64,000 bases of DNA, from assembly GCF_014217565.1 (NCBI RefSeq), contig NZ_CP043661.1:5456001-5520000 (forward strand), given 5' to 3'. Under the pieces are notes generated by a model. The model did not search any database and had not been told where the DNA came from. It saw only the letters and a program-made list of their open reading frames with translations. Position numbers and translations under genes: made by a program. This document shows, piece by piece, positions 22,383 through 24,076 of the stretch; the first letter of the stretch is position 1; each line of letters begins with the position of its first letter. Origin of the DNA: Kribbella qitaiheensis. GTDB taxonomy: Bacteria; Actinomycetota; Actinomycetes; Propionibacteriales; Kribbellaceae.

Positions 22383-22521
22383 GCTCATCCAGAGGGACTG
22401 AGGGAAACGGCCCGTTGAAGTCCCGGCAACCCTCCCCGTTGGCGCACTCGATCCGGGTGCGTTCGCGGCGGACCGGTGCCAAATCCGTCCCGCGCCGAGA
22501 TCCGGTTCGGGGAAGATGAGG
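22383..22521 (+). promoter_or_regulatory. SAM riboswitch (S-box, SAM-I type) upstream of thrC
   Basis: The leader holds the conserved core: CTCATCCAGAGGGACTGAGG (22384-22403), then GGCCCGTTGAAGTCCCGGCAACC, later GGTGCCAAATCC, and the closing GGGGAAGATGAG (22509-22520), whose GATGAG pairs with CTCATC to form stem P1. The 3' strand of P1 runs directly into AGGAGG, the ribosome site, and GGAGG GAA CCTCC just before the ATG can form its own small hairpin. This arrangement suggests translational control: with SAM bound, the ribosome site would be hidden. The controlled genes are thrC and moaD. Confidence 0.88.
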
Positions 22522-22532
22522 AGGGAACCTCC

Positions 22533-23801
22533 ATGAGCTTGAGCACCCCGACCGCCACCCACACCATCCGTGCAGGTGCCTTCGGCAACGGAACGCACCT
22601 GAGCTGTCGCGCCTGCGGCGCGAAATCCGAACTCGGCCCGTTCTACGCCTGTATGGAGTGCTTCGGTCCGCTGGAGGTCGGGTACGAGTTCCCGGCCATC
22701 ACGCGTGCACAGATCGAGGCCGGCCCGAAGAACATCTGGCGCTACCAGCCGCTGCTGCCCGTCCCGGTCGACGTGGCGAGCTTCCCGAACACCGAACCGG
22801 GCTACACCCGGCTGATCGACGCCGGCAACCTGGCCCGCGAGCTCGGCCTGCGCAAGCTCTGGGTGAAGGACGACTCGGGCAACCCGACCCACTCCTTCAA
22901 GGACCGCGTGGTCGCGTCCGCCCTGAGCGCCACCCGTGAGCTCGGCATGAAGGTCTTCGCCTGCCCCTCCACCGGCAACCTGGCCAACGCCGTCGCCGCC
23001 GCGGCCGCCCGGGCCGGCATCCGCTCGGTCGTCTTCATCCCGCAGGACCTCGAGCGCCCCAAGATCATCACCACCGCCGTGTACGGCGGAACGCTGGTCG
23101 CCGTCGAGGGCAACTACGACGACGTGAACAAGCTCGCCTCCGAGATCGCCGGTGAGGAAGAAGGCTGGGCGTTCGTCAACGTCAACGTCCGGCCGTACTA
23201 CTCCGAGGGCTCGAAGACGCTCGCGTTCGAGATCGCCGAGCAGCTCGGCTGGCGGATCCCGCAGCAGGTGGTGATCCCGGTCGCGTCCGGTTCGCAGCTG
23301 ACCAAGATCGACAAGGGCTTCACCGAGCTCGGCAAGCTCGGGCTCGTCGACGCCACCGACTACAAGATCTACGGCGCCCAGGCGACCGGCTGCTCGCCGA
23401 TCGCCCAGGCGTTCCGCGACGGGTACGACGTGGTGAAGCCGGTCAAGCCGGACACCATCGCGAAGTCCCTGGCGATCGGGAACCCCGCCGACGGACCGTA
23501 CGTGCTCGACGTCGCCCGGCGTACCGGTGGTGTGATCGAGGACGTCAGCGACGAAGAGGTCATCGAGGGCATCCAGTTGCTGGCCCGGACCGAGGGCATC
23601 TTCACCGAGACCGCCGGCGGCGTCACCGTCGCGACGCTGAAGAAGCTGATCGAGACCGGTCAGCTCGACCCCGACGCCGAGACGGTGATCATCAACTCCG
23701 GCGACGGGCTCAAGACGCTCGACGCGGTGGCCGACCGGGTCGGCCCGAAGGTCACCATCCCCGCGTCCTACGACGCCTTCGTGAAGGCAGGTCTGCAGTG
23801 A
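22533..23801 (+). CDS. thrC: Threonine synthase-like PLP enzyme with N-terminal zinc ribbon
   Basis: 422 aa. A CxxC-CxxC zinc ribbon at C25/C28 and C40/C43 precedes the fold-type II PLP domain. The cofactor Lys is K123 in NPTHSFKDRV, the phosphate-binding residues are in ACPSTGNLANAVAAAAA, and VIINSGDG is at the C-terminus. By homology it converts O-phosphohomoserine to threonine. Its control by a SAM riboswitch and its overlap (ATGA) with a sulfur-carrier-like protein gene do not fit plain threonine synthesis and suggest a sulfur-transfer variant. Start ATG at 22533 is preceded by AGGAGGG. Confidence 0.88.
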   Translation: MSLSTPTATHTIRAGAFGNGTHLSCRACGAKSELGPFYACMECFGPLEVGYEFPAITRAQIEAGPKNIWRYQPLLPVPVDVASFPNTEPGYTRLIDAGNLARELGLRKLWVKDDSGNPTHSFKDRVVASALSATRELGMKVFACPSTGNLANAVAAAAARAGIRSVVFIPQDLERPKIITTAVYGGTLVAVEGNYDDVNKLASEIAGEEEGWAFVNVNVRPYYSEGSKTLAFEIAEQLGWRIPQQVVIPVASGSQLTKIDKGFTELGKLGLVDATDYKIYGAQATGCSPIAQAFRDGYDVVKPVKPDTIAKSLAIGNPADGPYVLDVARRTGGVIEDVSDEEVIEGIQLLARTEGIFTETAGGVTVATLKKLIETGQLDPDAETVIINSGDGLKTLDAVADRVGPKVTIPASYDAFVKAGLQ

Positions 23802-24076
23802 GTGTGAGCGTGCGCGTCCCGACCATCCTGCGGCCGTACACCAAGGGTGTCTCCGAGGTCTCGGTCGAAGGCTCGACCCTGAGCGAGGTGCTGGAGTCGC
23901 TCGACACGTCGTACCCGGGCATCAAGAGCCGGGTCCTCGACGAGTCCGGCGAGCTGCGCCGCTTCGTCAACGTGTACGTCGACAACGACGACGTCCGGTT
24001 CTCCGAGGGACTCCAGACCGCGATCAAGGACGGCGGCCAGGTCTCGATCATCCCGGCCGTCGCCGGCGGCTGCTAA
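23798..24076 (+). CDS. MoaD/ThiS/CysO-like sulfur carrier ending in Gly-Gly-Cys
   Basis: 92 aa ubiquitin-fold protein. It starts MSVSVRVPTILRPYTKG and ends with SIIPAVAGGC; the resemblance to mycobacterial CysO (PTILRP near the start, RFVN-YV in the middle, PAVAGG at the end) is strong. In CysO and MoaD the C-terminal Gly-Gly carries the thiocarboxylate sulfur. Here one extra Cys follows the Gly-Gly, so it must be removed before activation, or it is the Cys adduct form. Translation is coupled to thrC by the four-base overlap. The JAMM peptidase and PLP partner known from Mycobacterium are not in the window. Confidence 0.85.
   Translation: MSVSVRVPTILRPYTKGVSEVSVEGSTLSEVLESLDTSYPGIKSRVLDESGELRRFVNVYVDNDDVRFSEGLQTAIKDGGQVSIIPAVAGGC

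Follow-up and report, generated by a model that had tools for sequence, protein, structure and literature searches.

In the HcyS/HcyD system of Wolinella, homocysteine is formed with sulfur from a carrier thiocarboxylate, and a C-terminal residue of the carrier is removed by a JAMM-type hydrolase; the enzyme has the cystathionine gamma-synthase fold and acts on an acylated homoserine, and the extra carrier residue is Ala, as against Cys in the Kribbella carrier described below. In the MetM/MetO system of Streptomyces albulus, the sulfur donor is reportedly thiocarboxylated MetO, encoded downstream of metM. This homocysteine route and its SAM riboswitch were published by Hasebe et al. (2024; AEM 90:e01247-24, doi 10.1128/aem.01247-24), as cited in PMC12172450, where metO is named as a carrier-family gene. 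A cyanobacterial (Microcystis) homologue studied in vitro made threonine and deaminated threonine and gave no clear homocysteine (PMC12172450). In the mycobacterial CysM-CysO-Mec+ system, which operates with MoeZ, the carrier thiocarboxylate feeds a PLP enzyme taking a phosphorylated amino acid, O-phosphoserine, and Mec+ hydrolyses the CysO-Cys adduct, releasing cysteine (PMC3227635).

Here we describe an operon of Kribbella qitaiheensis whose products very probably form the methionine precursor homocysteine from carrier sulfur and an intermediate of the threonine pathway, and whose expression would be switched off by S-adenosylmethionine. It lies in a stretch of 64,000 nucleotides that was analysed as a whole (hereafter the window, to which feature positions refer). 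As far as the S. albulus system is described in the source cited above, the two have in common a threonine-synthase-like enzyme, an adjoining sulfur carrier gene and an upstream SAM riboswitch; a possible difference is the Gly-Gly-Cys end of the Kribbella carrier. The operon is thus a well-supported further example of the known MetM/MetO system and not a discovery, although the Gly-Gly-Cys carrier and the carrier-less variants discussed below may be new details. The original prediction, which reconstructed a real pathway from the DNA letters, had suggested a system not yet described biochemically, which the 2024 publication shows to be wrong.

The leader of the operon, predicted to be an S-box, passes the Rfam covariance model of the SAM-I riboswitch (RF00162) with 70.1 bits against a gathering threshold of 44.4, and the alignment spans the whole model (positions 1-108). 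The aptamer (22382-22522, + strand) is the sole RF00162 match both in the window and in the 8.16 Mb single-contig genome. The 3' strand of its P1 helix (GATGAGGA) runs directly into a Shine-Dalgarno-like purine-rich stretch around GGAGGG (22518-22526, + strand), which thereby abuts the aptamer; comparison of the leaders revealed the same junction of P1 with a GGAGG stretch in many relatives. The ATG of metM follows at 22533, only 10 nt past the aptamer end, and no terminator-like site was predicted on the + strand between the aptamer and metM. As these 10 nt offer no space for a terminator, control of translation initiation would be the natural reading, and we infer that the riboswitch acts on metM at this level. 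In the minimum-energy fold of the leader alone, the P1 5' strand pairs with the start codon region and the Shine-Dalgarno site is closed; folding of this single sequence yielded no clear two-state switch. The metM gene (22533-23801, + strand) is followed by metO (23798-24076, + strand), whose GTG start codon at 23798 overlaps the metM stop codon in a GTGA, not in the ATGA given in the original prediction. A DJ-1/PfpI plus AraC-type regulator (FtrA-like) is encoded convergently to metO on the opposite strand (24073-25059, -), and the end of its gene overlaps the metO stop codon.

The 422-aa product of metM, a proposed O-phosphohomoserine/carrier-thiocarboxylate homocysteine synthase, is indeed the threonine-synthase-like PLP enzyme with a zinc ribbon that had been expected: in profile searches it matches the threonine synthase model TIGR00260 (284 bits, cut-off 167) as well as Pfam PALP, and its N-terminus carries a zinc-ribbon-like motif C-x2-C...C-x2-C (CRAC...CMEC). 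With only 39.7 bits against a cut-off of 344 for TIGR01136, it falls outside the CysK/CysM family; unlike mycobacterial CysM, MetM belongs to the threonine synthase group and not to the cysteine synthase group, its proposed substrate is O-phosphohomoserine rather than O-phosphoserine, and there is no JAMM gene in the metM-metO operon. MetM is 71-95% identical to its syntenic relatives, the nearest of which are found in Kribbella species (94-95%), and 64-83% identical to the class-wide relatives listed, which share the riboswitch. Canonical threonine synthases (e.g. 1uim, 2zsj and 6cgq) have in common with MetM the fold family, the match to TIGR00260 and the PLP lysine motif SFKDR, which is retained in MetM relatives, but are only 35-38% identical to it (35% for the canonical ThrC of the same genome) and differ from it by the lack of the zinc ribbon, the carrier partner and the SAM control. 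In addition, the alignment revealed fixed differences between MetM and ThrC: STGNL in place of STGNT, VNVNVRPYY.EGSKT in place of VN-SVNPxR.EGQKT, a change in the (R)xEGQKT region, and ASGSQ (or ASGAQ) in place of GNAGN, while TETAGG occupies the position of the Cys/Val/Ala-Glu-Pro motif of ThrC. The Thr and Arg that are missing from the MetM motifs are, we presume, the residues that contact the substrate phosphate in the Thermus threonine synthase.

The metO product (92 aa) belongs to the ThiS/MoaD families (Pfam ThiS, 60 bits); its closest solved structure is Mycobacterium CysO (3dwg_C, E=2.6e-27), and it is 52% identical to the CysO encoded in its own genome. These matches bear out the predicted MoaD/CysO-like carrier. 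Its end is not a plain Gly-Gly: the protein terminates with AVAGGC (24059-24076), one Cys past the Gly-Gly of CysO.

Elsewhere in the K. qitaiheensis genome, a canonical thrC (L013:4557-5639) lies between hom and thrB, with lysA and rho nearby, and encodes a protein of 360 aa that is 58.5% identical to the Thermus thermophilus enzyme over the aligned part. The genome-wide RF00162 search detected no SAM-I riboswitch at this gene, so that the lysA-hom-thrC-thrB cluster supplies the second, riboswitch-free thrC for which the original prediction had proposed to search. The threonine synthase sited with hom and thrB is a separate ThrC, not MetM, and given this canonical set threonine supply does not need metM. 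A zinc ribbon is also present in the third ThrC-like protein of the genome (PRK08197, 628 bits), encoded away from hom-thrC-thrB, at L021:4158-5333 (C1 about 1574157-1575332). Profile searches of the genome found neither MetX (best match 20.6 bits, E=5.8e-4) nor MetA. The genome encodes the synthesis of O-phosphohomoserine (hom, thrB) and, at C1:2483021, MoeZ (696 bits, above the cut-off). A search for a JAMM peptidase gene, likewise proposed beforehand, did find one, but this sole Prok-JAB (JAMM) match of the genome sits in the mec-cysO-cysM cluster (C1:6113403-6115140) and not in the metM-metO operon. In a search of plasmids, the sole close match was a chromosome-sized Nonomuraea record.

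To follow the operon beyond K. qitaiheensis, we used a set of 80 close relatives from GTDB genomes and a class-wide sample of 296 evenly drawn genomes. In all 40 relatives scanned for SAM-I, the riboswitch was found directly upstream of metM in the same layout, and metO lies beside metM on the same strand in 95 of the 108 loci with enough flank. The MetM matches in the class-wide sample were bimodal: 182 genomes had matches with E-values below about 1e-150, while in the 114 others the best match was at the level of an ordinary ThrC, with intermediate values in two. All 182 genomes with MetM have a SAM-I riboswitch, as opposed to 11 of the 114 without it, and wherever the places of both were listed (126 of 126 cases) a distance of 10-115 bp (median 37) separates the riboswitch from the MetM match downstream of it. 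This recurrence of gene order and riboswitch across the class excludes chance. Of the 114 genomes without MetM, 109 encode MetX, compared with 84 of the 182 MetM-containing genomes (Fisher p about 1e-20, uncorrected for phylogeny), which leaves 98 of the latter without MetX. Such complementarity, read with p-values that ignore phylogeny, is the pattern that a replacement homocysteine route would predict. Five of the 296 genomes (G056, G058, G111, G217 and G286) have neither a MetM-like enzyme nor MetX, for which an incomplete genome, MetA or auxotrophy are conceivable explanations. The data indicate that the MetM/MetO route is widespread in the actinobacterial class and, among the sampled genomes, always SAM-I-controlled there. 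As MetM still scores best as a threonine synthase in curated models, the prediction of pathways and auxotrophies and the annotation of threonine synthases are all affected.

We consider it highly likely that the operon, under SAM-I control, forms homocysteine from O-phosphohomoserine and the thiocarboxylate of MetO. This is the methionine-supply function put forward in the original prediction, and the canonical thrC elsewhere in the genome, the lack of MetX and MetA, the presence of MoeZ, the coupling to SAM-I and the MetM/MetO precedent all argue for it. In the proposed scheme, the extra C-terminal Cys of MetO would have to be cleaved off at the outset, most likely by the single JAMM hydrolase of the genome (Mec+), after which MoeZ, encoded elsewhere, would adenylate and thiocarboxylate the Gly-Gly end. 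Hom and ThrB would supply O-phosphohomoserine to MetM, which would carry out a gamma-replacement with the thiocarboxylate sulfur. Homocysteine would arise either directly or by hydrolysis of an adduct between it and the carrier, and would be converted to methionine by methionine synthase. When SAM is abundant, the riboswitch would close beside the Shine-Dalgarno site and the translation of metM and metO would fall.

The high score of MetM with TIGR00260, its best curated model, and the threonine synthase and deaminase activities of the Microcystis homologue (PMC12172450) would also agree with a second threonine synthase (or threonine synthase/deaminase) that is SAM-regulated by happenstance and has a neighbouring carrier with some other role. 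We regard this as very improbable in a genome that has a full hom-thrC-thrB set and a further zinc-ribbon ThrC-like protein; moreover, the strict SAM-I coupling and the complementarity with MetX fit methionine supply, and the conserved motifs of MetM depart from those of ThrC at fixed positions. Hardly more credible is a main flow of homocysteine through cystathionine, with MetM/MetO making some other sulfur amino acid. Such a flow would depend on the cystathionine gamma-synthase-type enzyme of the genome (PRK07811, 659 bits, above the curated cut-off), which has several relatives there, acting on O-phosphohomoserine as in plants or on an acylated homoserine from an enzyme other than MetX and MetA. 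However, no acyltransferase (MetX, MetA) was found in the genome and, because a cystathionine beta-synthase (TIGR01137, 648 bits) is encoded as well, the pair of beta-synthase and gamma-synthase/lyase-type enzymes is best interpreted as a reverse transsulfuration route that converts homocysteine to cysteine.

A variant that overlaps with the preferred reading, in which MetO is dispensable and the sulfur that MetM uses for homocysteine comes from free sulfide or thiocarboxylated CysO, appears unlikely, given the 95 loci in which metO accompanies metM, yet some observations speak in its favour. Searching the flanks of metM detected no adjacent carrier at 13 of the 108 loci with enough flank (L065, L087, L091, L125, L126, L128, L133, L134, L143, L148 and L150-L152). 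These loci, which include representatives of Kibdelosporangium and Pseudonocardia, have SAM-I in all those scanned, and the mec-cysO-cysM cluster is intact in all three of these genomes that were checked. With MetO and CysO as similar as they are in K. qitaiheensis, a MetM with no adjacent carrier may share CysO.

Returning to the MetM/MetO operon with its own carrier, we compared the ends of the 95 metO products encoded beside metM, that of the window included: 73 end with Gly-Gly, 20 with Gly-Gly-Cys (19 of the 94 relatives besides the window's MetO) and two with Gly-Gly-Ala-Arg. On the maximum-likelihood tree of the enzyme, the Cys cap accounts for 14 changes, at least 10 of which are forced by well-supported branches, and capped and uncapped states both occur within Kribbella. 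Among the uncapped metO genes, 67 of 73 end with GGC-TGA, and a second stop codon follows directly in just one of the 73. The cap thus probably arises by duplication of GCT, which turns GGC-TGA into GGC-TGC-TGA and would account for both the identity of the Cys and the one-residue length; selection for Cys as the reason why the cap is always Cys is then unneeded. The persistence of the cap implies that the Cys is either removed or harmless. If amide-linked, the CysO-Cys adduct ends with Gly-Gly-Cys too, which makes Mec+ the obvious candidate for removing the cap, and by this analogy we suggest that Mec+ may mature the Gly-Gly-Cys form of MetO. The presence of the cap could not be contrasted with that of a JAMM gene, which was found in all 49 genomes tested. 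Only tentatively, and with the balance tipping somewhat to the other side, we propose that Gly-Gly-Cys MetO is a pro-carrier that mimics CysO-cysteine and depends on Mec+ for its maturation, so that methionine supply is tied to the JAMM hydrolase of the cysteine route; that elsewhere a carrier-less MetM borrows CysO; and that the cap has been repeatedly gained and lost via GCT duplication and tolerated through its removal by Mec+. The Gly-Gly-Cys end makes cross-talk between the carrier systems for cysteine and methionine simple to test. Loci with this end include L056, L059, L060, L063, L069, L083, L085 and L088, and the two carriers with Gly-Gly-Ala-Arg both come from Actinopolymorpha.
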